IMG/VR virus record: IMGVR_UViG_3300009159_000359
Coordinates: 1 to 22,264 of that record
DNA: 22,264 nucleotides
From: a virus
Reading direction: 5' to 3' (one strand)
Both the position numbers and the translations under genes were made by a program. Below, one piece after another: positions 2,279 to 18,115 of this stretch (positions are counted from its first letter, which is position 1; every line of letters starts with the position of its first letter). The notes under the pieces were generated by a model. The model made no database searches. It had not been told where the DNA came from and worked only from the letters and a program-made list of their open reading frames with translations.

Positions 2279-2953
2279 ATGGCAAGCAGCACTACCACAA
2301 AGGCTAGGGCAGAGAAGGCCGCAGAGAAAGCCGCCGCAGCACTAGCATCCAACACCGTCGCACTCAAAAACCACCTCGCCCACAGGGCAATCGCTGGCCT
2401 CCCAAGACCCGAAGAGCGCCTCTTCGACCGTGAGTTAGTGAGCGCTCACATCTGTACCGAGATCAGGTCAGGACGGTCACTGAACGACATCTGCAAAAAC
2501 GACGTTGGAATGCCTACCATTCAGACCTACAAGTCTTGGATTCAGGCGGATCCAGACGGAGTGGGCACTCACTACGCACTGGCTCGGCAGCACGGTTATT
2601 CCCACATGGCAGACGATATTCTGGTGCTCGCAGACAAGACGCACGAGTGGGTCACGGTGCACGCGCTGAACGTCAACGGTGAGCCGGCGTACGACTCGGA
2701 CGGCAACCCGATACTAAAACAAGAATTGATGAGCCTGAACTCAGACGTCGTGGCCCACAAGAGGCTGCAGGTCGACACGCGTAAGTGGCTATTGAGCAAG
2801 GTCCTGCCGAAGATCTACGGAGACAAGATCGTCCAAGAGCACATTGGCGCTAACGGCGGACCGATCGCCTTGGCCGCGGTAGACATGAAGAACCTGACGG
2901 ACGAAGAGCTGGAGAGCATGAACCTGATGCTGACGAAGGCTGGGGCTGGTTGA
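2279..2953 (+). CDS. terS: Terminase small subunit
   Basis: TerS binds phage DNA at the packaging site, oligomerises as a ring and delivers the DNA to TerL. The 224-residue protein has a basic Ala/Lys-rich N-terminus, then a helix-turn-helix-like stretch (SLNDICKNDVGMPTIQTYKSW) of the kind found in Sf6 gp1-like small terminases. A helical oligomerisation region follows (YALARQHGYSHMADDILVLAD), then the C-terminal WLLSKVLPKIYGDKI motif typical of that family. I chose ATG 2279 because AGGA lies 5 nt upstream. The in-frame GTG at 2186 has no such site and overlaps a hairpin. The stop overlaps the TTG start of TerL. Assignment rests on recalled family motifs and the adjacent TerL. Confidence 0.82.
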   Translation: MASSTTTKARAEKAAEKAAAALASNTVALKNHLAHRAIAGLPRPEERLFDRELVSAHICTEIRSGRSLNDICKNDVGMPTIQTYKSWIQADPDGVGTHYALARQHGYSHMADDILVLADKTHEWVTVHALNVNGEPAYDSDGNPILKQELMSLNSDVVAHKRLQVDTRKWLLSKVLPKIYGDKIVQEHIGANGGPIALAAVDMKNLTDEELESMNLMLTKAGAG

Positions 2954-4512
2954 GCACAGCTGCGGCGGTGCACGGGCTGGTAAAGCGCGAGATAGAGCGC
3001 AGGAAGGCCTCCGCGTCGCTGTACGAGTTCGTGAAGCAAAGCTGGCATGTGGTAGAGCCCGGCATACCGTTCATCAAGAGCTGGCACATTGAACAAATTT
3101 GTGAGCATTTAGAAGCGATTACGTCTGGCGACATACGTAAGTTGCTGATCAATATTCCCCCCAGACACAGTAAGTCCACCATCGTCTCGGTTATGTGGCC
3201 TATCTGGGAGTGGTTAACCGACCCGTCACAGAAGTTCTTGTGTGCGAGTTACTCCGGCAATCTGAGCATCAGGGACAACCTGAAGGCTAGGCGCCTGATC
3301 CAGTCCCCTTGGTACCAAGACCGGTGGGGGCACATGTTTGAGCTGGCGGGTGACCAGAACGCCAAGGCAAGGTTCGAGAACTCTGCGACAGGGTACCGGC
3401 TGGCCACGTCGGTCGGTGGTACTGCAACCGGTGAGGGTGGCTCGAGATTGATCTTGGACGACCCGCACGGGGCTCAGGACGCACAGTCTGACACGATGCG
3501 TGAGTCTGCACTGGAATGGTTCGACATGGTGTGGAGCACGCGGCTCAACAACCCGAAGAAGGACGCGATGGTCACGGTCATGCAACGACTGCACGAGCGC
3601 GACATCAGCGGCCATATCTTGGAAGACATTGGCGGCTGGGAGCACATCTGTATTCCGGCGGAATGGGACGGCAAGCGGCGGAAGACCGTACTCGGACCCT
3701 ACGACCCTAGGACGGTGAAGGGCGAACTGATCTGCCCTGAGAGGTTCGGGGAGGCGGAGATCACCCAGCTCAAGCAGCTCTTGGGCGCGTACGGCACGGC
3801 TGGCCAGCTGCAGCAGGACCCTACCCCGAGCGAGGGCGGCATACTCAAGACGTCTTTCTTTGCCATGTGGCCGCACGGTTCAGCGCTGCCTACATTTGAA
3901 TACATCTTGCAATCTTACGACTGCGCATTTACAGAGAAGACCACTGGCGATCCCACTGCGTGTACTGTGTGGGCAATGTTTACCCATAAGGGTCAGCGTA
4001 ACGCGATGCTGATCGACGCCTGGGACGAGCACCTAAGCTACCCAGATCTGCGTACTAGGGCCATCAAAGAATGGACCACAGAGTACGGCGGCATGACCAA
4101 AGACTCGCCCTTCTCGCGTGCACGCCGTCCTGACAGGGTACTGGTCGAAGCTAAGGCCAGCGGTCAGTCTCTGCTGCAAGACCTGCGGCTGGCCAAGGTC
4201 CCTGCGGTCGGGTACAACCCTGGCAATGCCGACAAGGTCTCTCGTGCCCATCAGACGGCGCCAACGCTAGAGCTCGGACTGATCTGGATACCTGAGTCGA
4301 AGAAGAACCCCGGTCAGCACGTAAGCTGGGCCGCAAGCTTTCTCAAGCAGGTCGGCAAGTTCCCCGTCGCAGAGCACGACGACTACGTGGACACGTTCAC
4401 GCAGGCGATCATCTACCTGAAGAACGACGGGTGGTTCGAGCTACCGAAAGCCAAGGACATTGACTATCCAAAAATTGACGACAAGCCACGCATAAACCCC
4501 TATGCCGCGTGA
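2950..4512 (+). CDS. terL: Terminase large subunit (packaging ATPase and nuclease)
   Basis: TerL is the ATP-driven motor that pumps DNA into the prohead and cuts it. The 520-residue length is normal. The N-terminal ATPase carries a variant Walker A (NIPPRHSKST, Lys75) and a Walker B strand ending in acidic residues (RLILDDPHG, Asp170-Asp171). A coupling motif is near 208-216 (VTVMQRLHE). The C-terminal RNase H-like nuclease shows spaced acids Asp324 (QSYDCAFTE), Glu400 (VLVEAKASG) and Asp477/478/481 (HDDYVDTF). The start is a TTG overlapping the terS stop (TTGA), implying translational coupling. A GGGG sits 4 nt upstream. No ATG alternative lies near the N-terminus. All key motifs appear intact. 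Confidence 0.95.
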   Translation: MSTAAAVHGLVKREIERRKASASLYEFVKQSWHVVEPGIPFIKSWHIEQICEHLEAITSGDIRKLLINIPPRHSKSTIVSVMWPIWEWLTDPSQKFLCASYSGNLSIRDNLKARRLIQSPWYQDRWGHMFELAGDQNAKARFENSATGYRLATSVGGTATGEGGSRLILDDPHGAQDAQSDTMRESALEWFDMVWSTRLNNPKKDAMVTVMQRLHERDISGHILEDIGGWEHICIPAEWDGKRRKTVLGPYDPRTVKGELICPERFGEAEITQLKQLLGAYGTAGQLQQDPTPSEGGILKTSFFAMWPHGSALPTFEYILQSYDCAFTEKTTGDPTACTVWAMFTHKGQRNAMLIDAWDEHLSYPDLRTRAIKEWTTEYGGMTKDSPFSRARRPDRVLVEAKASGQSLLQDLRLAKVPAVGYNPGNADKVSRAHQTAPTLELGLIWIPESKKNPGQHVSWAASFLKQVGKFPVAEHDDYVDTFTQAIIYLKNDGWFELPKAKDIDYPKIDDKPRINPYAA

Positions 4513-4553: not shown

Positions 4554-4563
4554 ATGCCGGCAT
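4554..4563. repeat. Perfect 10-bp palindrome over the start of the giant gene
   Basis: ATGCCGGCAT is a perfect palindrome whose right end includes the first two bases of the start codon at 4562. It could be a protein-binding site, or simply a chance result of two ATG triplets around GCCGGC. Confidence 0.3.
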
Positions 4564-7500
4564 GCCTAATAAACCAGTGGACAAAGACACGCTGCCGCTC
4601 AATCAGCCTCGTCGCACGCCTAGCCATCCGACGAAGTCTCACGTTGTGAAGACCAAGGTCGATGGTAAAGAGAAGATCATCCGGTTCGGTGAACAAGGCG
4701 CCAGCACTGCGGGCAAGCCCAAGGCTGGAGAGTCTGACAAGATGAAGGCCAAGCGTGCCTCGTTCAAGTCACGCCATGCAAAGAACATTGCCAAGGGACC
4801 AAGCAGCGCCGCCTACTGGGCCAACAAGGTCAAGTGGGCTGAGGGCGGCACAGTCGAATCAACAAGCGGGCTGCAAGACCTGCTGGACAAGTACGCTGAA
4901 GGCGCCGTCAAGTCTACGCGCACGGTAACCGACGCATTAGCGAACCTTACCCCGATGGGCGACATGTCCCGTGAAGCTGCACGCGCAGCAACCCTAGTCT
5001 ACCCTAAAGAAACCGAACTTGGCGGCGAAGCTGACGCGTTGCGGCACATGCTGTTCCAGTCTGAGCTGTCGGACAAGTACGGCGAGCTGCCCGCGTACAT
5101 GGTCGGTCTGGCGAACGAGTATCTCAGGGGCGGACTACAATCCCCAGCAGAAAGACGGATGGACCTCGATAACGATATGTTAGGCAGGGCGTTCGGTCGG
5201 ACGGTGTCAGACCCTGACGAGCGCATGCGCATGATGATGGACCTTATCGACATGGGCGGCGCGACCACGTTAGAAGACAGCGAGCTGGGCTACGCACGCG
5301 GCGGGCCGGTTCCTGGCTTTGGCAGGGGAGGCAACTGGGCCGAGATTGCCGCGAAGGCACGCCTAGGCGTTAAGACAGCGGCTGAAGAGCTGCTTGATCT
5401 CTCACAAGAAGCCAAGTCGGCAAGAGCAGTAGAGCAAGGGTTCACGGACAGGTTGTGGCACTCAAGCAATGAAGTATTTGCTGGATCGCCACAAGCTAAA
5501 GAAGCCATTGAATATAATATTCCCATTCGACGTGAATTTAAAAACGTTTTTGGGGGCACCTATTTTTCACCAGAAAGCGATTTAACAGGAGAAATTTTTG
5601 GTAAAGGAACTTTTGGTGGACCAGCAGAATATTTGATAAAAAAGGGAAATAACTTTGACGCTCATCATCCGAGTATGGGCGAAGAACAGAAAAAACAATT
5701 AAAAGATATACTTAATTCAGTGTTAGACACTGATGATATTGAAGGAGCAGCCGCAAGACTTGATATACCGTTAGAAGATGTTGATAGCTTTGATCTTTTT
5801 ACAGATGGTGAATTTTATCAAGCATTTGGTAGAGATGCACAAGACAAAGTCATGAATGCTTTTTCTAAGAGAGGCTATGATTCAGTAACATTCCCTGACA
5901 ATTTGGCTTCTGGCGACATGACACGTTCAACTGTTGTTTTTAATCCATCTCACATTCGATCGCCCGATGCTGACTTCGACCCCTCCAAGCTAGACTCTTC
6001 GGATCTAGGACACGCCAAGGGTGGCTCCGTGCCTGGCTTTGGCAGGGGAGGTATCAATCCAAAAGAGCTTGCAGCAAAGGTATCCGGTACGCTCAAAGAG
6101 GCACAAGACCTGCTTGGCATAACGCCTGAAGCACAAGCGGCTTGGCGTGCGTCTCGCACAGGGAGCAAACGGACCCGCGTACCAGAAGTGAAAAGCGCAG
6201 CAAACAGCTTGCGCTTAGGCGACATATCGACCGACGAGTATCAGGCAATAGTACGGCAATTCATGCCGATCAAACCGTTGGGGGCGGTTCAAAACGTGCC
6301 TACATTCGAGAACATTGCGCTATCGCTTAGCAAAGACCCAAATAAATCAGCGGGCATTGTTGGTGTTAATGTCGACATCCCAGACGGAACCAGAATCGCC
6401 TCAAGGCTTGACATACCAGCATACCAGAACTATGACACATGGGTGGTCTCCCTTCACGACGGGACCAAGAAAGGCGGCAACGCTGTGGGCTACGGGCAGA
6501 CGGCGGTATTGAACAATGTAAATTTTGAGTCTAGCGCGAAGGGTGCGCTAAACATAGCCTCTGAAGCTCTGAAGCCTAGCGGTGAGAAATACGATAAGAG
6601 CACGATTGCTAGAATGTATGGCGATTGGGCAAACCATTCAGCCGAGGACGTGCAGAGGGCGGCGACAAGCATACTGGAAGACGGCGATCCAGATTGGGTC
6701 GAGATCGGCATGAACCCAGACCGTCACAGCTATTTCTATCGCAAGTCAGACGGGGCACCGGTTGGCTCTGCAGAGCAGGTAATACAAATAGGACCGCTAG
6801 TGTTAGCAAAGAAAGTCAAAACGATTGCGATAGATGACCCTGCGCACTTAGTAGAGACGCCCAATGGTCCTCGTCATTACGCCCGTGGCGGCATTAATCC
6901 GAAAGCTTTGGCCAAAGAATTAAAAGGCGGTGAGGTCATGGGCTACGCTGAGGGAGGCCTAGCAGAGCTCGCGGACAAGTACAGCAAGGACTACTACCAG
7001 TTTCCTTTTGACGACCACGACGAGCACTACCTGAAGTTTGCAGGCGGCGGAGATCTAGCCAAAATCTTGAGGGAGTGGCTCAAGGACCACCCTGAAAAAG
7101 GACTGGCAGATTTGAAGACTCGTCAACCCGCTATAGAACACTACCAAGGCATACTAGCAGACCCAACGCTTGCAAACAGACGCATTGGCACAGGCACACA
7201 TGAAGCAGGTAGCCCTTTATATTATGACATGGCTCAACAAGAATTGAACGCACTCAAGCCAGACATAGCCCTTAACAATTTTGTTGATGGTGCACTCAAC
7301 AAGTACATTAAGCGCGACTACGGCACCGACTGGGATCCATTGACCACGCTTACGCCAGACGAAAGACACGTCCCCGAGGGCGTGAACAATGTTGCTCGTC
7401 AAGGCGAGCCCACTCTAAGATCAAGAAACTGGCCACCGATCAGGTTTGGCTCTGAAGCTGGCACTAAAAAGATAATAGATGGGCTGCGGTCAACGACACG

Positions 7501-10465
7501 CGATTTGATTCATTCCCCAACAGCGGGATATAGAACTACTGGACTACGCATCGACGACGTGTACAAGGCAAATCCGTGGCTCACAGGAAAACCAAGAGAC
7601 ATGGAATTGTTTTATGATTTTAATCCACACTATGGCGCATTTCCTCACTTGATAAATACGCTACGCAGAACTATTACGCCAGACTCTGGCCTGCCTAATG
7701 AGCTGCGTCTCAACCCTGAGTCATTGCAACGTATGTCCGTGCTGCAGGCGTCAAAACTTGTGGGCAAGGTCAATCAGTGGGACAAGGCACAGGCACAAGC
7801 GGCCAGTCAGAGGCTGATGTTAAACCCGTTCAAGGAGTACGACTCTGGATACAAGTGGGTCAAGCTGCCAAACGCTAGAGAGCCGGAGGGACTAAAGTCG
7901 GTTATGGACTTAGGCTGCAAGGGGGGCTGGTGCACGCAGCAAGAGGACCAAGCGAAAGGCTATAGCAATTACGCAAGAGGAGACCATCTGTATGCGCTGC
8001 TAGACCCCGAAGGAAGACCGCACGCGCAAGTTTCCACTTTTGAGGGAGACCCGCACGATTGGGAAAGAAATAAAAATATAACGTCAATGCAGCCACTCGC
8101 TAACGATTTTGACAGCCAGTATGTTTCTGACTGGATGAAAAAAGATCCAAATTACAAGAATCAGATCAAGGGCTACATGCAAGACTTTGCGGGGTCCAAT
8201 GACTGGACACATAATGGGGCTGTTGATGGCATGGACGCGATAGACATGATACCGACAAATGATTGGGAGAAATATTTTAAACTCAACCACATGAAATATG
8301 AGCCCCTACGGGGATCGTTGAACTATGATCCTGCAAATGTTGGTGGGTCAGACGCTGTGTATCTTGAGGCTGTGCGTCGGGCAAGACAAAACGCTAGCCA
8401 GAGAGAAGAAAAAATCCCCGCGTATATGACTGTTCGCCAATCCAAAAACATGATCCAACAATTTATGCCAAGGCTTGACGAACGTGAACGTATAAACGCT
8501 CAAGTTGAGCGATTGTTCCAAAAACCTCCAGTAGAGGGCTACGCCGAAGGAGGCCGTGCCATGAAAGACTTAAAAGACGAACCGGCGCCAGACATTTACG
8601 ACTCCCAGAAGCGCAGCAAGACCGGTATTGATGTTCTGGACAACATGCTAGACCCGTTCTATGCGATGAGGGCTGGGATAGACGCTCAGGTATTGCCAGA
8701 AGAGGTCCAATGGACAGACGACGAGGGTAACATGCACAGCTACACTGCGCCCGGCATAGCCAACAGCGCTCTGGGTTTAGCAAGCTACGCCCAACTCTTT
8801 GGCGGTCCCGAGTATCCAATGGCAGACGCGGGGTCAGACGCGTACGACACAGGCTTGCAGCGTGCTCTTGATCACTATGCTCTTCCCGTACGCAACGACA
8901 TGGGGTTTGTGAACAAGACTGGTCTGACTCTAGGCGAAATGCTTGGACAGATACCGCTGGTCCCGCTGTCCGCGGCTAACAAGGTCCGCCAAGGCGCACA
9001 AGTTTTAGGGGGCGCAATGCCTTTCATTAAAAAAACGCTTATGGCTATCCCTGAGTATCTGGGTCCAACCATTGAGCCGACAGCGTTAAATTATGCGATT
9101 GGCACAGCGGGCGGAATGGCGTTCCCGCCTGCGATGGAAGGATTGATGAGAATGTACGAAAAGTACAGCCCTGAGCTTGAGTATGAAGTGCCTGACACTG
9201 ACATGCGCGGATTGCTTGACGACATAGGCAATCCAATAGACCGTGAGTCAGACAAAAGGGTGGCCCAGTGGGTCGCTGAGCAGCGCGGTCCTTCAGACGA
9301 GCGGGCTAGGATAGCGGACAACGTCAGGCGCAGCATGATGACGCCAGGCTTTGGCAAAGGCGGTTTCAACCCTAAAGAGCTTGCAGAGAAGCTAGCGAAA
9401 GAAGCGGCTGAAGATGTGCCTAAAAACCTATATACCGCTGCCGACCGCGCAAATGCGGGACGCAAAGCAGCTCAGCTAATTAGTTCGCAAGAGCCGGTCA
9501 AAGCATCAGAGGCTTTGGGGCAACTGATGGAGCGTGGGTTCAAAAACACTACGACCACGGTAGCTGACCGCACCCGTGTGGGCGGTGGCAACATAGGCGG
9601 CGCAAATTTCCCAGCTATTAGCGAAGTAGATCCAGGTTATGAGGATATAGTCTGGGGGGTGATGGATAAAGGTACAGGAAGTCGCTTGACTAACCTGACC
9701 ACGCCAGAGACAGCATGGACAACAATGCTCGGCTCTGGAACCCAGCTTAAAACCAACCCAATTGTATTTGACAAGCTCATGCGTGGCTTCTTGGGTTCCA
9801 TGAAGCAGGGCAACTTGTCTGACGACTTAGCCTCAAAAATAAACCACAACCTTGCGTTAGTATTTGGAGAAGGTGCAGACATCAGAGATCCGATGATTTG
9901 GCAGCTAGCAGATACGTTTGATAAGCGTTCGGTATTGGCCAACCTAATGATGGGTAAAGGCATGCCGAAAAGCAAAGGAGGCATTCCACTTGGGGGGGAA
10001 CTACGCGGCGGTGCTATCTTCAACCCAAGTGAAATCTTGATCAGAGAGACAGAACCTACGTTGATGCATCCTTTGTATGGTGGCAACGTGCCAACTTATG
10101 CTGCTGGTCCACGTACGTTCAGTTTGGACGGGACGGCCGAGTACCGCCCAGACCTACATCCAGGCTTTCCAACATTGTTACACGGGGAAGACTTGGGCTT
10201 TAATATGATCCCCACGCCGACTGAGGTTTACCTACCAGATTGGCACCGTGCTTTCAAAGCGGCCAACCCAGACCGCAAGGGTCCGGGCTACTACGACCTT
10301 GCGCTGGGCGTAGAAGGTGAGGGATTACCAAGCCAAGCCTTAACGGAAAAGTACATCCGTCATTTGATCCGCGAAGGATACAGCCACGGCGGCAACGTAG
10401 AAATGCAAGACCTGCAGGACATGTTAGACAAATATAATCAGGACACACGAGTAAATTATGGCTAA
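4562..10465 (+). CDS. Giant modular polyvalent-like protein (1967 aa)
   Basis: One uninterrupted frame fills the interval between terL and the portal; GAGA lies 9 nt before the ATG. Modules, by residue: 1-95 basic Lys-rich phage segment; about 100-240 with ADALRHMLF and MDLDNDMLGRAFG motifs resembling DUF6973-type domains; about 297-480 ADP-ribosyltransferase-like (LWHSS His300, GGTYFSP Tyr334, VVFNPSHI 458-465); about 500-770 an unnamed conserved-looking module (TWVVSLHDGT); about 830-1320 including a PcfJ-like stretch (MDLGCKGGWCTQ 1115-1125, LYALLDPEGRPHAQV); about 1335-1595 an Ala/Gly-rich region; 1600-1940 another unnamed module. Gly-rich boundaries (YARGG, GYAEGG, PGFGRGG) separate them. 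A short LxDxLDKY-like motif recurs at about 104-111, 802-807 and 1951-1958. Polyvalent proteins are known to be injected with DNA; that role here is inference. Confidence 0.85.
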   Translation: MPNKPVDKDTLPLNQPRRTPSHPTKSHVVKTKVDGKEKIIRFGEQGASTAGKPKAGESDKMKAKRASFKSRHAKNIAKGPSSAAYWANKVKWAEGGTVESTSGLQDLLDKYAEGAVKSTRTVTDALANLTPMGDMSREAARAATLVYPKETELGGEADALRHMLFQSELSDKYGELPAYMVGLANEYLRGGLQSPAERRMDLDNDMLGRAFGRTVSDPDERMRMMMDLIDMGGATTLEDSELGYARGGPVPGFGRGGNWAEIAAKARLGVKTAAEELLDLSQEAKSARAVEQGFTDRLWHSSNEVFAGSPQAKEAIEYNIPIRREFKNVFGGTYFSPESDLTGEIFGKGTFGGPAEYLIKKGNNFDAHHPSMGEEQKKQLKDILNSVLDTDDIEGAAARLDIPLEDVDSFDLFTDGEFYQAFGRDAQDKVMNAFSKRGYDSVTFPDNLASGDMTRSTVVFNPSHIRSPDADFDPSKLDSSDLGHAKGGSVPGFGRGGINPKELAAKVSGTLKEAQDLLGITPEAQAAWRASRTGSKRTRVPEVKSAANSLRLGDISTDEYQAIVRQFMPIKPLGAVQNVPTFENIALSLSKDPNKSAGIVGVNVDIPDGTRIASRLDIPAYQNYDTWVVSLHDGTKKGGNAVGYGQTAVLNNVNFESSAKGALNIASEALKPSGEKYDKSTIARMYGDWANHSAEDVQRAATSILEDGDPDWVEIGMNPDRHSYFYRKSDGAPVGSAEQVIQIGPLVLAKKVKTIAIDDPAHLVETPNGPRHYARGGINPKALAKELKGGEVMGYAEGGLAELADKYSKDYYQFPFDDHDEHYLKFAGGGDLAKILREWLKDHPEKGLADLKTRQPAIEHYQGILADPTLANRRIGTGTHEAGSPLYYDMAQQELNALKPDIALNNFVDGALNKYIKRDYGTDWDPLTTLTPDERHVPEGVNNVARQGEPTLRSRNWPPIRFGSEAGTKKIIDGLRSTTRDLIHSPTAGYRTTGLRIDDVYKANPWLTGKPRDMELFYDFNPHYGAFPHLINTLRRTITPDSGLPNELRLNPESLQRMSVLQASKLVGKVNQWDKAQAQAASQRLMLNPFKEYDSGYKWVKLPNAREPEGLKSVMDLGCKGGWCTQQEDQAKGYSNYARGDHLYALLDPEGRPHAQVSTFEGDPHDWERNKNITSMQPLANDFDSQYVSDWMKKDPNYKNQIKGYMQDFAGSNDWTHNGAVDGMDAIDMIPTNDWEKYFKLNHMKYEPLRGSLNYDPANVGGSDAVYLEAVRRARQNASQREEKIPAYMTVRQSKNMIQQFMPRLDERERINAQVERLFQKPPVEGYAEGGRAMKDLKDEPAPDIYDSQKRSKTGIDVLDNMLDPFYAMRAGIDAQVLPEEVQWTDDEGNMHSYTAPGIANSALGLASYAQLFGGPEYPMADAGSDAYDTGLQRALDHYALPVRNDMGFVNKTGLTLGEMLGQIPLVPLSAANKVRQGAQVLGGAMPFIKKTLMAIPEYLGPTIEPTALNYAIGTAGGMAFPPAMEGLMRMYEKYSPELEYEVPDTDMRGLLDDIGNPIDRESDKRVAQWVAEQRGPSDERARIADNVRRSMMTPGFGKGGFNPKELAEKLAKEAAEDVPKNLYTAADRANAGRKAAQLISSQEPVKASEALGQLMERGFKNTTTTVADRTRVGGGNIGGANFPAISEVDPGYEDIVWGVMDKGTGSRLTNLTTPETAWTTMLGSGTQLKTNPIVFDKLMRGFLGSMKQGNLSDDLASKINHNLALVFGEGADIRDPMIWQLADTFDKRSVLANLMMGKGMPKSKGGIPLGGELRGGAIFNPSEILIRETEPTLMHPLYGGNVPTYAAGPRTFSLDGTAEYRPDLHPGFPTLLHGEDLGFNMIPTPTEVYLPDWHRAFKAANPDRKGPGYYDLALGVEGEGLPSQALTEKYIRHLIREGYSHGGNVEMQDLQDMLDKYNQDTRVNYG
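5312..5331 (+). repeat. 20-bp direct repeat, left copy, flanking the ART-like module
   Basis: This 20-mer, encoding most of PGFGRGG, is identical to the copy at 6032-6051. The two copies are 720 bp (240 codons) apart, so recombination between them would keep the frame. A diverged third copy lies at 9344-9363. Confidence 0.9.
5450..6001 (+). other. AT-rich cassette encoding an ADP-ribosyltransferase-like domain
   Basis: This part of the giant gene differs in composition from its surroundings. My hand count for 5521-5940 is 155 G+C in 420 bases (about 37%), against 37 of 60 at 5041-5100 and 44 of 60 at 5281-5340. Codons favour A/T in third positions. The encoded segment has the His...Tyr...VVFNP arrangement of phage ART-like modules. 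It lies between the two 20-bp direct repeats and looks like an acquired cassette. Confidence 0.6.
6032..6051 (+). repeat. 20-bp direct repeat, right copy
   Basis: Identical to 5312-5331. The similarity to the diverged copy at 9344 continues downstream into codons for the shared motif NPKELA. Confidence 0.9.
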
Positions 10466-13031
10466 GTCTAAAGACGAAGAATTCTTGAAGAAAGAAGAGT
10501 TGGACTCTGAGGGTGAGACTGTAGAGGTCTCTGAAGACGAGGCTGGCGTTACCGACACCGAAGACGGTGGTGCTATGGTTGCGCTCGAAGAAAAGGAAAA
10601 CAAGCACGGCGAGCATAGCGTGCTAGAGCACTTCGCCAATATCGTTGACGAGGTTGACCAGTCAATGCTCAAAGAGTCTGTCACCGACTTATTGGAAAAG
10701 ATCGAGCGTGACAAGGAAGCGCGTGAGAAGCGCGACAAACAGTACGAGGAAGGCTTGCGACGTACAGGCTTGGGCGACGATGCCCCAGGCGGTGCCCAGT
10801 TCACAGGCGCCAACAAGGTCGTCCACCCGATGCTTGTCGAGGCGTGCGTAGACTTTTCTGCGCGGTTTATGAAAGAGATATTTCCGCCTAATGGTCCGGT
10901 CAAGAGCAAAGTAAACGGCGAGCAAGAGAAGAGCAAGCTAGAGAAGGCGCAACGAAAAGCCGACTTTATGAACTGGCAGATCACCGAGCAGATGACCGAG
11001 TTCAGGGGCGAGCTTGAGCAGTTGAGCACGCAGCTGCCGTTGGGTGGTGGTCAGTACATGAAGCTGATGTGGGACGCACAGCGCCGTAGGCCCAACGCTG
11101 AGTTTGTGCCCATTGACGATATTTATTTGCCGTTCGCTGCGACGAACTTCTACACCGCAGAACGTAAGACGCACGTCCAGTACATCACCAAGATGGAGTA
11201 CAACAAGCGCATCAAGACTGGCATGTACATCGACGTTGACCTTGGCGCTCCAGACGACCCAGAGTACAGCAAGGCGTCACAAGCCAACGACAAGATTGAG
11301 GGACGCAAAGACCTGAGCTACAACGAGGACGGTCTGCGTACCATGTTCGAGATATATACCTACTTTGATTTTGGTGATGGGGTAGAGCCGTACATCATCA
11401 CGATAGACAAGTCGACCAGTAAAGCGTTGGGCCTGTACCGTAACTGGGAGCCAGAGGACACGCAGAAGAAAGAGCTGGACTGGGTCGTAGAGTTCCCGTT
11501 TGTGCCTTGGCGTGGCGCCTACCCGATCGGTCTTACCCACATGATCGGTGGTTTGAGCGGTGCGGCTACTGGCGCGTTACGTGCCCTGCTTGACTCTGCC
11601 CACATCCAAAACATCCCTACCATGCTCAAGCTGAAAGGCGGGCCTGGCGGACAAACCCTGAACCTACAGCCGACCGAGATTGCGGAGATAGAGGGCGGTG
11701 CTTTGGTCGACGACATACGCAAGATAGCGATGCCGATACCGTTCAACCAGCCAAGCCCTGTCTTGTTTCAATTGCTTGGATTTTTAGTTGAGGCAGGCAA
11801 GGGCGTGGTGCAGACCTCGTTTGAGAGGCTGAGCGATCAGAGTGTTAACCAACCGGTAGGGACAACGCTGGCCCTCATTGAGCAGGGCATGGTCGTGTTC
11901 AGCAGTATTCATTCGCGCCTGCACAGTTCGATGGCGAAATGTTTGAAGGTAATCCACCGCATCAACTCTGCCTACCTTACTGAGGAAGACATAGAGGCGT
12001 GCGATGCTGGTCTTGAGATTGAGCCGTCAGACTTTGACGGTCCTATGGACGTCATCCCAGTCAGCGATCCTTCTATATTCAGCGAGACGCAGCGCTTTGC
12101 ACAGATCCAAGCGATCATTCAAAGGGCAGCGGTCGCGCCGCAATTGTACGACGCAAGGAAGGTCGAGGAGATGTTCCTGCGCGTAATGAAGATACCTGGC
12201 GACGAAGTATTGGTGTCGCTGCCTGGGACTGACGACATGGACCCGGTCAGCGAGAACGTCGCGGCGGCTATGGGGCGTCCTGTGTTTGTGTTGCCGGCGC
12301 AAGACCACATGGCACACATGATGGTACACATACCGTTCCTGCAGTCTCCCTTGTTTGGGTCAAACCCTGCAATAGCAAAGACCTACCTTTACCCGATGGC
12401 CACACACTTGCGTGATCACCTGTTGAACTATTATTTGGTAGAGGCCCACACCGCGATCAGCATGGCACAGAGCCAGAGTCTCATAGAGAAAGAGGCCCAA
12501 GCGCAGGTGAATGTTGTGCTACAGGTACAGCAGTTCATTGAAAGCCAGCTAGGGTCGTTTGGTCAGCAGTTAGCGCAGATTGATCAGTCAGCCCAGCAGT
12601 TCGCTCCACAGGCGCCCGTGCAGCAAGACAGCAGCCTACAGATTGCGCAGATGAACTCACAATTGCAGGGCCAAGCGTTGCAACAAAGAGCGGCACAAGA
12701 TCAGGCACGTACACAGATGGATCAGGCTAAGATGCAGCAGCAGTCGCAGATAGAGCAGACCAAGATCCAGCAGAAGGCACAGTTTGATCAGGCACGGCTA
12801 CAGTTAGACCAAGCTAAAATGCAGTTAGATCAGGCAGCCATTAGCATGGACGCGCAGATCGCGCAGGCACGACTGAGCGCAGACGCCCAGCGTACTATGG
12901 CAGAGCTAGAGTCACGCGAGCGCATGAACTCTGCCGACAACGACACCGCCAAGCTACTTGCAGCGGCAGAGATCGCGTCGGGAGAGAAAGTAAGTTTTAG
13001 CACAGGCACAGGCATTAACCCCAACCCATGA
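10458..13031 (+). CDS. Portal protein, P22-like
   Basis: The portal is the dodecameric ring at one capsid vertex through which TerL pumps DNA and to which the tail binds. The 857-residue protein has an acidic N-terminal extension (1-60), a conserved-looking core (FTGANKVVHPMLVEACVDFSARFMKEIF; WVVEFPFVPWRGAYPIGLTH; SDQSVNQPVGTTLALIEQGM), then a long Gln-rich helical C-terminus from about residue 675 to 815. That tail shows units of 7 and 11 residues (QMDQAKM, QQKAQFDQARL, QLDQAKM), as expected of a coiled coil and comparable to the P22 portal barrel. It overlaps the giant gene by 8 nt and has no strong ribosome binding site of its own, so coupling is likely. It is longer than the 725-residue P22 portal. 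Confidence 0.9.
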   Translation: MAKSKDEEFLKKEELDSEGETVEVSEDEAGVTDTEDGGAMVALEEKENKHGEHSVLEHFANIVDEVDQSMLKESVTDLLEKIERDKEAREKRDKQYEEGLRRTGLGDDAPGGAQFTGANKVVHPMLVEACVDFSARFMKEIFPPNGPVKSKVNGEQEKSKLEKAQRKADFMNWQITEQMTEFRGELEQLSTQLPLGGGQYMKLMWDAQRRRPNAEFVPIDDIYLPFAATNFYTAERKTHVQYITKMEYNKRIKTGMYIDVDLGAPDDPEYSKASQANDKIEGRKDLSYNEDGLRTMFEIYTYFDFGDGVEPYIITIDKSTSKALGLYRNWEPEDTQKKELDWVVEFPFVPWRGAYPIGLTHMIGGLSGAATGALRALLDSAHIQNIPTMLKLKGGPGGQTLNLQPTEIAEIEGGALVDDIRKIAMPIPFNQPSPVLFQLLGFLVEAGKGVVQTSFERLSDQSVNQPVGTTLALIEQGMVVFSSIHSRLHSSMAKCLKVIHRINSAYLTEEDIEACDAGLEIEPSDFDGPMDVIPVSDPSIFSETQRFAQIQAIIQRAAVAPQLYDARKVEEMFLRVMKIPGDEVLVSLPGTDDMDPVSENVAAAMGRPVFVLPAQDHMAHMMVHIPFLQSPLFGSNPAIAKTYLYPMATHLRDHLLNYYLVEAHTAISMAQSQSLIEKEAQAQVNVVLQVQQFIESQLGSFGQQLAQIDQSAQQFAPQAPVQQDSSLQIAQMNSQLQGQALQQRAAQDQARTQMDQAKMQQQSQIEQTKIQQKAQFDQARLQLDQAKMQLDQAAISMDAQIAQARLSADAQRTMAELESRERMNSADNDTAKLLAAAEIASGEKVSFSTGTGINPNP

Positions 13032-13179: not shown

Positions 13180-13373
13180 ACTTAGAGACCAAGCTACTGA
13201 ATAAGCTCAAGGCTGAGCAGCAGAGTTTTGCTGTAGAGGCTTTGACGCGACCCCAGACACGCGATACGTTTGAGTACGGGTATCGTGTTGGAATGTTTGC
13301 GGGCTACGAAGCCGCAATAAACGTACTATTAAAACTCATAGACGAGGAACAACATGGCGACAATGACATATGA
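13176..13373 (+). CDS. Small conserved-looking phage protein (65 aa)
   Basis: The GTG start overlaps the preceding stop by 4 nt, suggesting translational coupling, and the 3' end overlaps the co-chaperonin gene by 20 nt. The protein is mostly helical in character: a charged N-terminal helix (ETKLLNKLKAEQQSFAVEAL), an aromatic turn (FEYGYRVGMFAGYEA) and a second helix (INVLLKLIDEE). Small two-helix proteins in this position, between portal and head genes, occur in many environmental phages. I know no assigned role. Confidence 0.7.
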   Translation: MNLETKLLNKLKAEQQSFAVEALTRPQTRDTFEYGYRVGMFAGYEAAINVLLKLIDEEQHGDNDI

Positions 13374-13767
13374 GGACGCACTTGCAGAGGCTTTTCCCGC
13401 TGTAGAAGCAGGGATCCAGCCTTTCGGTAGCCGCGTTCTGATCCAGATAAGGACAGCTAAAAAGAAATCCACAGGGGGTATTATCTTAGACCTTGGCACG
13501 CAAGACACCGAGAAGTGGAACACACAGGTCGGTAAGGTTGTGCAGGTCGGACCATTAGCCTTTAAGAACCGCAATGACATGACCACATGGCCGGAAGGCG
13601 AGTGGTGTGCTGCGGGTCAATTTGTTCGGGTACCTAAATACGGCGGAGACCGTTGGGAATCTAGAATTCCTGACACAGACTCTACCGCAATGTTCGTAAT
13701 CTTTAACGACCTTGATATTATTGGGCGAGTCCTTGGCGACCCATTAGCTATCAAGGCATTCATCTGA
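13354..13767 (+). CDS. GroES-like co-chaperonin
   Basis: GroES-type proteins cap the GroEL folding chamber, and some phages encode their own version to fold capsid protein. The 137-residue protein follows the GroES plan: an N-terminal strand GIQPFGSRVLIQI (about 19-31), the mobile-loop position KKKSTGGIIL (37-46), VGKVVQVGPLAF (about 60-71) matching the GEVLAVG strand of GroES, FVRVPKYGGDRWE (about 91-103) for the roof region, and the terminal DLDIIGRVLG matching ESDILA. It is longer than bacterial GroES (about 97 residues) because of N-terminal, central and C-terminal additions. GAGGA lies before the ATG. Its place just before the scaffold and capsid genes fits a role in capsid folding with host GroEL. 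Confidence 0.75.
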   Translation: MATMTYEDALAEAFPAVEAGIQPFGSRVLIQIRTAKKKSTGGIILDLGTQDTEKWNTQVGKVVQVGPLAFKNRNDMTTWPEGEWCAAGQFVRVPKYGGDRWESRIPDTDSTAMFVIFNDLDIIGRVLGDPLAIKAFI

Positions 13768-16996: not shown

Positions 16997-17482
16997 ATGG
17001 CTTCAACTACTTTTTCCGGCCCAGTAACGTCCACAAATGGCTTTATTGGTGCCCTCACTGGTAATGTAACAGGTAATGTAACAGGTAATGTAACAGGCAA
17101 CATTGCAGGCTCAGGCACCATCACCCATGCCACAACATCCGCAATTAACGCTACAGCAACGGCAACCGCCGCGCAGGTAGCAACCGGCTACATCACTTCT
17201 ACTTCAGCCTCAGCTACTGCCATCACTCTGCCTACAGGCACGTTGTTGGGCGCAGCTCTTGGTGCAGCTAAAGGTACAATTTTTGACCTTTACATAGACA
17301 ACACTGCCGGTGCTAGTACCGTGACCATTGTTGTTGCGGTAAACGGTATCTTGTCCACCGCAGCCGCAGACACTCCAGGTAGCTTTGGTGACCTGACTAT
17401 TGCCGCTGGTGTAACTGGCTTGGCTCGCTACACAATCATGTTTTCGAGCGCAACTGCGTACGTGTTCACACGCACTGCTTAA
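16997..17482 (+). CDS. Small Gly/Thr/Ala-rich virion protein (161 aa)
   Basis: The ATG has AGAGGAG 6 nt upstream. The protein opens with STTFSGPVTSTNGFIGAL, then repeats GNVT three times (residues about 22-33, from 12-bp DNA repeats), then a low-complexity Ala/Thr stretch and a beta-rich C-terminal half (GTIFDLYIDNTAGASTVTIVV, then RYTIMFSSATAYVFTRT). This N-terminal repeat plus beta C-terminus is typical of small surface or head-fibre proteins of environmental phages. It follows the capsid gene but is separated from it by a terminator. The exact place in the virion is unknown. Confidence 0.65.
   Translation: MASTTFSGPVTSTNGFIGALTGNVTGNVTGNVTGNIAGSGTITHATTSAINATATATAAQVATGYITSTSASATAITLPTGTLLGAALGAAKGTIFDLYIDNTAGASTVTIVVAVNGILSTAAADTPGSFGDLTIAAGVTGLARYTIMFSSATAYVFTRTA
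17060..17107 (+). repeat. 12-bp tandem repeat inside the 161-aa gene
   Basis: GGTAATGTAACA is present three times without change (17060-17095), followed by a diverged fourth unit. Each unit encodes GNVT. Copy number could vary by slippage without breaking the frame. Confidence 0.9.
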
Positions 17483-17911: not shown

Positions 17912-18085
17912 ATGAGCAAGACATATAAAATTGTTAAAGAGTTTTCGTTTCCTACGTCGCAAGGGTTTACTGGCTCTGCTGGTAAACAGTCCGTCAGTGC
18001 TTACGCTGTGGGTGGGAAGGTAGCCACCCCTTGCGCTTGTGGCGGTTATACCATGCGATCGAAGGGCGGAAAGTCTAAGAAGTAG
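17912..18085 (+). CDS. Small Gly-rich protein with CAC motif (57 aa)
   Basis: An ATG at 17912, 6 nt after the previous stop, opens a 57-codon frame ending in TAG at 18083-18085. No clear Shine-Dalgarno site is seen, so it may depend on coupling. The sequence has a mixed N-terminus (KTYKIVKEFSFPTSQG), the motif AYAVGGKVATPCACGG and a basic tail (RSKGGKSKK). The YAVGGK motif recalls the YAxGG boundaries of the giant protein. The close Cys pair could bind a metal. The role is unknown; reading-frame length, operon spacing and protein-like content support it. Confidence 0.55.
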   Translation: MSKTYKIVKEFSFPTSQGFTGSAGKQSVSAYAVGGKVATPCACGGYTMRSKGGKSKK

Positions 18086-18086
18086 C

Positions 18087-18115
18087 GTGTCATGTTTTAT
18101 TATTTGAATTATACT
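18087..18115 (+). promoter_or_regulatory. Candidate promoter before the head-tail adaptor gene
   Basis: GTGTCA (18087-18092), 17 nt, then TATACT (18110-18115) lie in an 85-nt gap about 55 nt before the adaptor start. The sequence after the -10 (TCAGGCATCG) nearly matches that after the 4523 box. A small hairpin (TGCTG/CAGCA, 18131-18143) follows in the leader. Confidence 0.45.

Follow-up and report, generated by a model that had tools for sequence, protein, structure and literature searches.

Polyvalent proteins of phages and conjugative elements are, according to the main text of the paper that treats them, large multidomain proteins pieced together from solo domains, which in phages belong mostly to the portal-terminase class (Iyer et al., 2017; PMC5512222). 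The same text assigns to them one or several copies of ADP-ribosyltransferase (ART) domains of the H-Y-D class and predicts that the proteins are packaged and injected (Iyer et al., 2017). The window analysed here, which is a whole virus record of 22,264 bases, encodes a giant protein that resembles them in carrying DUF6973 and phrog_7595 modules and in having relatives whose homologous modules are PcfJ and ART-PolyVal. As in the phage polyvalent proteins, it is encoded among virion genes, with the terminase large subunit on one side and the portal on the other. Delivery together with the DNA, as predicted for polyvalent proteins, may by analogy extend to this protein, the precedent (PDB 9k3a) being at the level of fold only. 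There are also differences. An embedded metallopeptidase (zincin-like; common, but not universal) is a theme of the published account (Iyer et al., 2017), whereas a motif scan found no HExxH in the window's giant protein. The main text of that account does not contain the word 'linker', nor did we find in it a description of the repeated genome-specific Gly-Gly linkers, the empty and filled sites or the joint change of linker type reported below. Among the literature titles and beginnings of abstracts surveyed, we recognised no paper that treats repeated linkers in polyvalent proteins.

Lambdoid phages possess boundary or linking sequences, which are short and conserved, lie at module borders and favour exchange. 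The linkers described here are likewise short border sequences, but the lambdoid ones lie between genes, whereas those of the present family lie inside one gene and are bound to its reading frame. In polymorphic toxins, cassette exchange changes the C-terminal toxin. The modules of the giant gene differ in this respect, since they change at various positions along the chain. The recombination of effector cassettes into the main locus of polymorphic toxins is mentioned in the text on polyvalent proteins (Iyer et al., 2017). Finally, the ejection-core protein of Cyanophage A4 (PDB 9k3a, judged by its title) resembles the present protein in having an ART-like domain inside a giant chain; gp27 of Anabaena phage A-4L (KF356198) differs in that one ART-like domain was recognised and the linker motif has only 1 match.

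Organisation of the giant gene and its 20-bp repeat

The preliminary description drew attention to a perfect 20-bp direct repeat that frames an AT-rich, ART-like cassette. The repeat itself is exactly as claimed: CCTGGCTTTGGCAGGGGAGG occurs at 5312-5331 and 6032-6051, the two copies being identical, 720 bp apart and in frame with the giant ORF at 4562-10465, with an identity that extends 0 bases further on either side. Both copies are parts of Gly-Gly linkers that lie at module boundaries, as set out in the following list of features.

2950-4512, + strand: terminase large subunit (neighbouring gene)
4562-10465, + strand: giant modular ORF, 1967 aa, between the terminase large subunit and portal genes
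4562-4837, + strand: N-terminal module, residues 1-92, with a phrog_7595 match (residues 8-92)
4838-4906, + strand: linker 0, AEGGTVESTSGLQDLLDKYAEGA, similar to the C-terminal tail at 10379 (direct repeat)
4943-5218, + strand: DUF6973 module, residues 128-219 (28.8 bits against a cut-off of 27)
5291-5341, + strand: linker a, YARGGPVPGFGRGGNWA, which holds repeat copy 1
5312-5331, + strand: 20-bp repeat copy 1, encoding PGFGRGG, an exact match to copy 2
5408-5962, + strand: ADP-ribosyltransferase-like module, residues 283-467, with an AT-rich core at 5475-5955
6011-6085, + strand: linker b, HAKGGSVPGFGRGGINPKELAAKVS, which holds repeat copy 2; core from 6042
6032-6051, + strand: 20-bp repeat copy 2, encoding PGFGRGG, an exact match to copy 1
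6053-6877, + strand: module 3, with a Phage_L5_gp82 match under the Pfam cut-off
6878-6976, + strand: linker c, YARGGINPKALAKELKGGEVMGYAEGG and following, with the GGEVMGYAEGG part at 6926
7052-8536, + strand: PcfJ-like module; homologues in two relatives (L009, L025) pass the Pfam PcfJ cut-off
8540-8578, + strand: linker d, YAEGGRAMKDLKD
9344-9406, + strand: linker e, PGFGKGGFNPKELAEKLAKEA, a third, diverged repeat copy
9374-10411, + strand: C-terminal conserved module with parts of the adjoining linkers; N-terminal, internal or C-terminal in relatives
10379-10465, + strand: C-terminal Gly-Gly tail, YSHGGNVEMQDLQDMLDKYNQDTRVNYG, and stop
10458-13031, + strand: portal protein (neighbouring gene)

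We read the giant ORF, with a probability of about 0.6 that is shared with the module exchange at linkers discussed below, as a polyvalent-type phage protein consisting of a chain of ART-like, DUF6973, PcfJ-like and other modules. In Synechococcus phage S-CBS2 the phrog_7595 module stands alone as a protein, the gene of which stops directly after the residue aligned to W92, just before the point at which the AEGG linker starts in the window. Module 3 is shared with phages CRP-9, CRP-207 and MW202701, residing in Roseobacter phage CRP-9 in a protein of 1395 aa. The window's copy of the PcfJ-like module gave no Pfam match. The model of the C-terminal module (pLDDT 70.8) gave 3 matches with Z of at least 2 among 36 chains, the best (Z 5.8) being to YTH domains, a likeness that we dismissed as meaningless. 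Elsewhere in the window, an ORF matching the phage co-chaperonin GroES family (13354-13767; phrog_3188, E 7.8e-10) lies just downstream of the portal gene, an ORF with a strong phage ferredoxin match (1261-1908; phrog_3704, E 2.4e-85) lies upstream of the terminase genes, and a tandem 12-nt repeat, ACAGGTAATGTA with variants, occupies 17045-17104. Three relatives (L021, L022 and L024) have related portals, directly upstream of which the neighbouring ORF has 491-526 aa, is not giant and is a putative terminase.

Since the repeat is short, it could in principle be due to chance or to faulty assembly. However, the two copies are the 2 sites in the window that lie within 3 mismatches of the 20-bp sequence, compared with 0 in 100 shuffles, and when the codons of the giant ORF were shuffled synonymously the two 20-mers became identical in 0 of 1000 trials, with any exact repeat of at least 20 nt arising in 2 of the same 1000; peptide constraint alone is therefore insufficient to give the perfect repeat. 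Both copies recur in another assembly of this virus (L002; 99.94% identity over 18,462 nt; copies in L048, on the same contig), which counts against an assembly artefact, and we consider either origin highly improbable. The likeness between the linkers also goes beyond the 20 bp: the two 50-nt stretches that finish with a copy of the repeat are 74% alike, and the third, diverged copy lies at 9343-9394 (81% over 52 nt).

The base composition follows the repeat less closely than had been proposed. The G+C content counted by hand for 5521-5940 (155 of 420 bases, 36.9%) is exact, and the figure of 60-70% given for the flanks agrees with the 240 bp upstream (5072-5311; 61.3%) but not with the 240 bp downstream (6052-6291; 54.2%). 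The AT-rich block spans 5475-5955 (36.6% G+C) and is separated from the repeats by stretches of 55.9% (5332-5474, 143 bases) and 60.5% (5956-6031, 76 bases), so that composition does not change at the repeats and the two sets of borders do not coincide. The AT-rich tract thus does lie inside the repeats, but it corresponds to the ART core rather than to the whole repeat-bounded segment. In G+C content the window's ART module is 13.9 points under the rest of its ORF; the ART modules of the family differ from their own ORFs by a mean of only -4.6 points (n=25), and 8 of the 25 lie above, so we rejected AT-richness as a family trait of these modules.

The ADP-ribosyltransferase-like module between the repeats

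The suggestion that the module between the repeats is ART-like holds up, in that the H-Y-D residues, a weak profile score and the list of fold matches make it a divergent ADP-ribosyltransferase candidate. In an alignment of 18 rows, comprising the window's module and 17 others that are mostly modules of relatives, the H of LWHSS, the Y of GTYFS and the D of GYDS provide the H-Y-D residues, most relatives having Y or F in the Y column. The structural model places these three residues within, or at the edges of, the predicted strands 55-60, 92-95 and 200-206; the main text on polyvalent proteins places the H of the Tox-ART-HYD2 or H-Y-D class in strand 1, the Y in strand 2 and the D in strand 5 (Iyer et al., 2017). 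When modules of relatives were tested against ART-PolyVal (PF18760), 7 out of 7 passed the cut-off; the Pfam search gave no PF18760 match for the window's module, and the second ART module of the nearest relative, L003, scored 20.2 bits in the whole protein, under the cut-off of 31.2. A profile built without the rows of the window and L003 scored the window's module at 14.1 bits, compared with at most 4.0 in 200 shuffles, with filters off (with filters on, only L003 was listed), while the score of 4e-27 obtained with an iterated ART profile is partly circular, as that profile had taken the module in. Pfam and PHROG searches with the window's ART module returned nothing useful, and nor did PDB sequence searches with the ART module, the giant proteins or the ART alignment. 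By sequence, the ART assignment of the window's module is weak, and we refer to it as a candidate.

The model of the module has a pLDDT of 63, with residues 1-16 and 244-259 under 50, and a Foldseek search with it against the PDB gave no match at E <= 0.001. With VIA-align the best match is chain C of 8qnl, NatT (Z 7.7, under 8; 133 aligned residues, rmsd 4.2). The 50 matches listed are mostly proteins that we take, in part by title, to be ADP-ribosyltransferases. They include chain B of 9k3a (Z 7.6, residues 1419-1610), an entry titled Cyanophage A4 pre-ejectosome; gp27 of phage A-4L carries LYHGT at position 1424, the chain and this gene product being joined by residue number and motif only. 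ART activity of the module is a prediction.

Gain and loss of modules among relatives

Relatives were gathered by scanning with the 20-bp motif, with the giant protein and separately with its PcfJ-like and C-terminal modules, and with the portal; together with three phage records this gave a set of 186 loci, several of which share a contig. Their ORFs of at least 300 aa that match a module of the window's protein number 149, or 104 after removal of redundancy. Cutting these at the linker motif yielded 314 segments of at least 90 aa in 84 families; among the families with more than two members, 20 out of 22 occur in more than one neighbourhood, and the 104 ORFs display 73 distinct module architectures, a number somewhat inflated by ORFs cut at contig ends.

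The nearest relative, L003, has a portal that is 99% identical to that of the window and a giant protein of 2207 residues. The ART cassette is kept in L003, with 98% protein identity and, measured in steps of 60 nt, 97-100% DNA identity. At linker b both genomes agree as far as CCTGG in the second repeat copy, after which one base differs, four agree and the remainder of the repeat diverges; L003 has another type of core and 24 extra nt there, next to DNA that is near identical. Beyond linker b they agree again for ~100 nt and are then 61-85% identical through module 3, past which L003 is 708 nt longer because of an additional ART module just 5′ of the GGEVMGYAEGG part of linker c. Linker e lies 3.3 kb downstream, and there the two genomes differ in an 18-nt patch and at one more base; the DNA 3′ of the patch is identical, while on its 5′ side the aligned stretch has 4 differing sites. 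In L003 the cores of linkers e, b and c share one type; the three linkers are GRGGINP-like in the window and ASAGSVA-like in L003. Over the 11 residues that follow PGF, the genomes agree with each other at 4/11 in linker b and 4/11 in linker e, compared with 9/11 (window) and 8/11 (L003) between linkers b and e of a single genome. A replaced block adjoins or includes linkers b and c, which leaves linker e as the one clearly separate change.

Of the breakpoints that the preliminary description expected within the repeats, the comparison of the window with L003 shows one, which falls in the 3′ copy, but L003 retains the cassette. A search of IMG/VR with the 20-bp motif, degenerate at 3 positions, found it in this virus (two copies), in L003 (one copy) and in L047, where we take the match to be due to chance as none of the six ORFs listed at the site resembles a giant protein; this virus alone showed the perfect 20-bp identity. 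Neither this search nor the set of relatives contained a form without the cassette at 5312-6051. Since L003 keeps the cassette and the motif was found only in these three, no deletion form is known, and exchange of this particular cassette was not observed.

Across the family, we identified 23 events of module gain or loss between related ORFs, in which 21 of the 46 edges are no more than 10 residues away from a linker (13% expected); this list replaced a broader one of alignment ends, which mixed divergence with rearrangement. After five events had been dropped by hand as duplicates (L155-L160, L147-L153, L083-L151, L142-L146 and L142-L147), 19 of the 36 edges of the remaining 18 events lie within 10 residues of a linker, compared with 5.3 expected, a number reached in 0 of 2000 circular-shift permutations, and the other 17 edges lie more than 10 residues from any linker. 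The junction sequences reveal clear in-frame gain or loss of a module in L130/L129, L145/L142, L091/L090 and L147/L146, and inspection by eye identifies the linker of L142 as a hybrid of those on either side of the module that L145 has in addition.

The longest exact match between edge stretches is only 6-11 nt in the seven junctions compared, and a perfect repeat is therefore not the general substrate. For the same reason repeat-driven homologous recombination is not demonstrated, as selection alone could give similar in-frame survivors: illegitimate joins might arise anywhere, with only those in flexible linkers yielding proteins that fold, so that the DNA repeats would be passive reflections of peptide constraint. 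The short matches fit this explanation, as do the survival of none but working fusions and the low model confidence at the ends of the ART module, where the linkers lie. On the other hand, it does not account for the 20-bp identity, which synonymous shuffling failed to restore, nor for codon sharing above expectation (see below), nor for a linker that is single in one genome and found on both sides of an insert in another; we regard it as possible, although distinctly less probable than recombination between linkers.

The last of these observations comes from a pair of empty and filled sites, L190 and L176, which is the strongest case of exchange. The two are 92% and 91% identical on the two sides of the site, the matches overlapping by 54 nt in L190, and in place of the single linker of L190 there are in L176 two similar copies with a spacing of 1983 nt (661 codons). 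The insert in L176 contains two ART modules recognised by profile and a third, of the R-type and ART-like, recognised by eye. The copies around it share 14 identical residues, the codons of which agree at only 8 of 14, a figure that slightly weakens the case for recombination between linkers and slightly strengthens that for selection alone. Together with the position of edges at linkers, this pair supports recombination that swaps whole domains for the gene family, but the proposal is not supported for the exact cassette at 5312-6051.

Linker signatures and a proposed route of module exchange

Linkers of one genome resemble each other more than they resemble those of other genomes. Among the 188 linker pairs within genomes, of which L176 and L003 supply 84, 17.0% score at least 50 (29 cluster representatives), compared with 1.7% of 7712 between-genome pairs and 0.06% of random windows. 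At the DNA level, identical linker peptides share 377 of 639 codons (59%, compared with 37% expected), a figure dominated by L176 (146/195) and falling without it to 231/444 (52%, ~38% expected), while duplicated peptides outside linkers share 623/1347 (46%, 37% expected). The 104 ORFs contain 42 exact repeats of at least 16 nt, all of them in frame, and in 10 of these both copies lie in linker windows; L176 and a module duplicated in L083, L104 and L074 account for many of the 42. The giant ORFs of L083 and L104 each have several exact shared pieces 2154 nt apart, suggesting a duplicated module.

Of the 96 complete giants, 90 have Gly-Gly within 55 residues of the C-terminus, compared with 39% of random windows. 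Such tails are also found in other settings: some giants have doubled C-terminal tails (e.g. L069, L087 and L101), such as YAEGGSVSYDPTRIEEIMNSI...YAEGGSVSAYDSGRVDAIVNQFM, which might be a sorting signal; the adjacent ORFs at 1296-2993 and 2996-5017 of L124 each terminate in a Gly-Gly tail, as though the modules had been retained as individual genes; and a reading frame at 18002-18089 of the window ends in AYAVGGKVATPCACGGYTMRSKGGKSKK, a Gly-Gly tail outside the giant gene. A scan of other ORFs for linker tags returned mostly noise. The frequency of the tails, the tendency of linker types to be genome-specific and the joint change of three linkers to another type in L003 relative to the window would all fit an explanation in which the linker is mainly a functional peptide, a virion-sorting signal or processing site that matches a phage-specific partner, so that selection keeps the linkers of a genome alike, with recombination as a by-product. 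As HExxH was detected by motif scan in only 7 of the 104 giants, always in the context GHEGRHR, and not in that of the window, no peptidase is evident in the protein itself. We consider this explanation unlikely.

We favour recombination at linkers as the probable route of module exchange in this polyvalent-type protein. The protein would enter the virion and reach the cell along with the DNA, as predicted by analogy. Its modules are separated by the Gly-Gly linkers which, being alike within a genome and partly so at the DNA level, we propose to act as in-frame couplings. Recombination from linker to linker, within one genome or between co-infecting phages, would then insert, remove or replace whole modules in frame, most plausibly through homologous or annealing-type recombination. 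Phage recombinases reportedly tolerate diverged homology. The 20-bp repeat would represent two couplings around one ART module that have a recent common origin or share a conversion tract. In a more speculative extension, to which we give little credence at present, the linkers would be a genome-specific adaptor read by a phage-specific partner (such as the portal or a protease), the couplings of a genome would be converted to one type and a captured module would be domesticated by the local linker, making the gene a self-standardising cassette array within one ORF.

The location of linkers at module borders, the pair of empty and filled sites and the joint differences in linker type together offer a concrete route by which effector arsenals could be assembled, and phages may use such arsenals against bacterial defences. 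Cutting giant phage genes at their linkers would also offer a way to find new effector modules.
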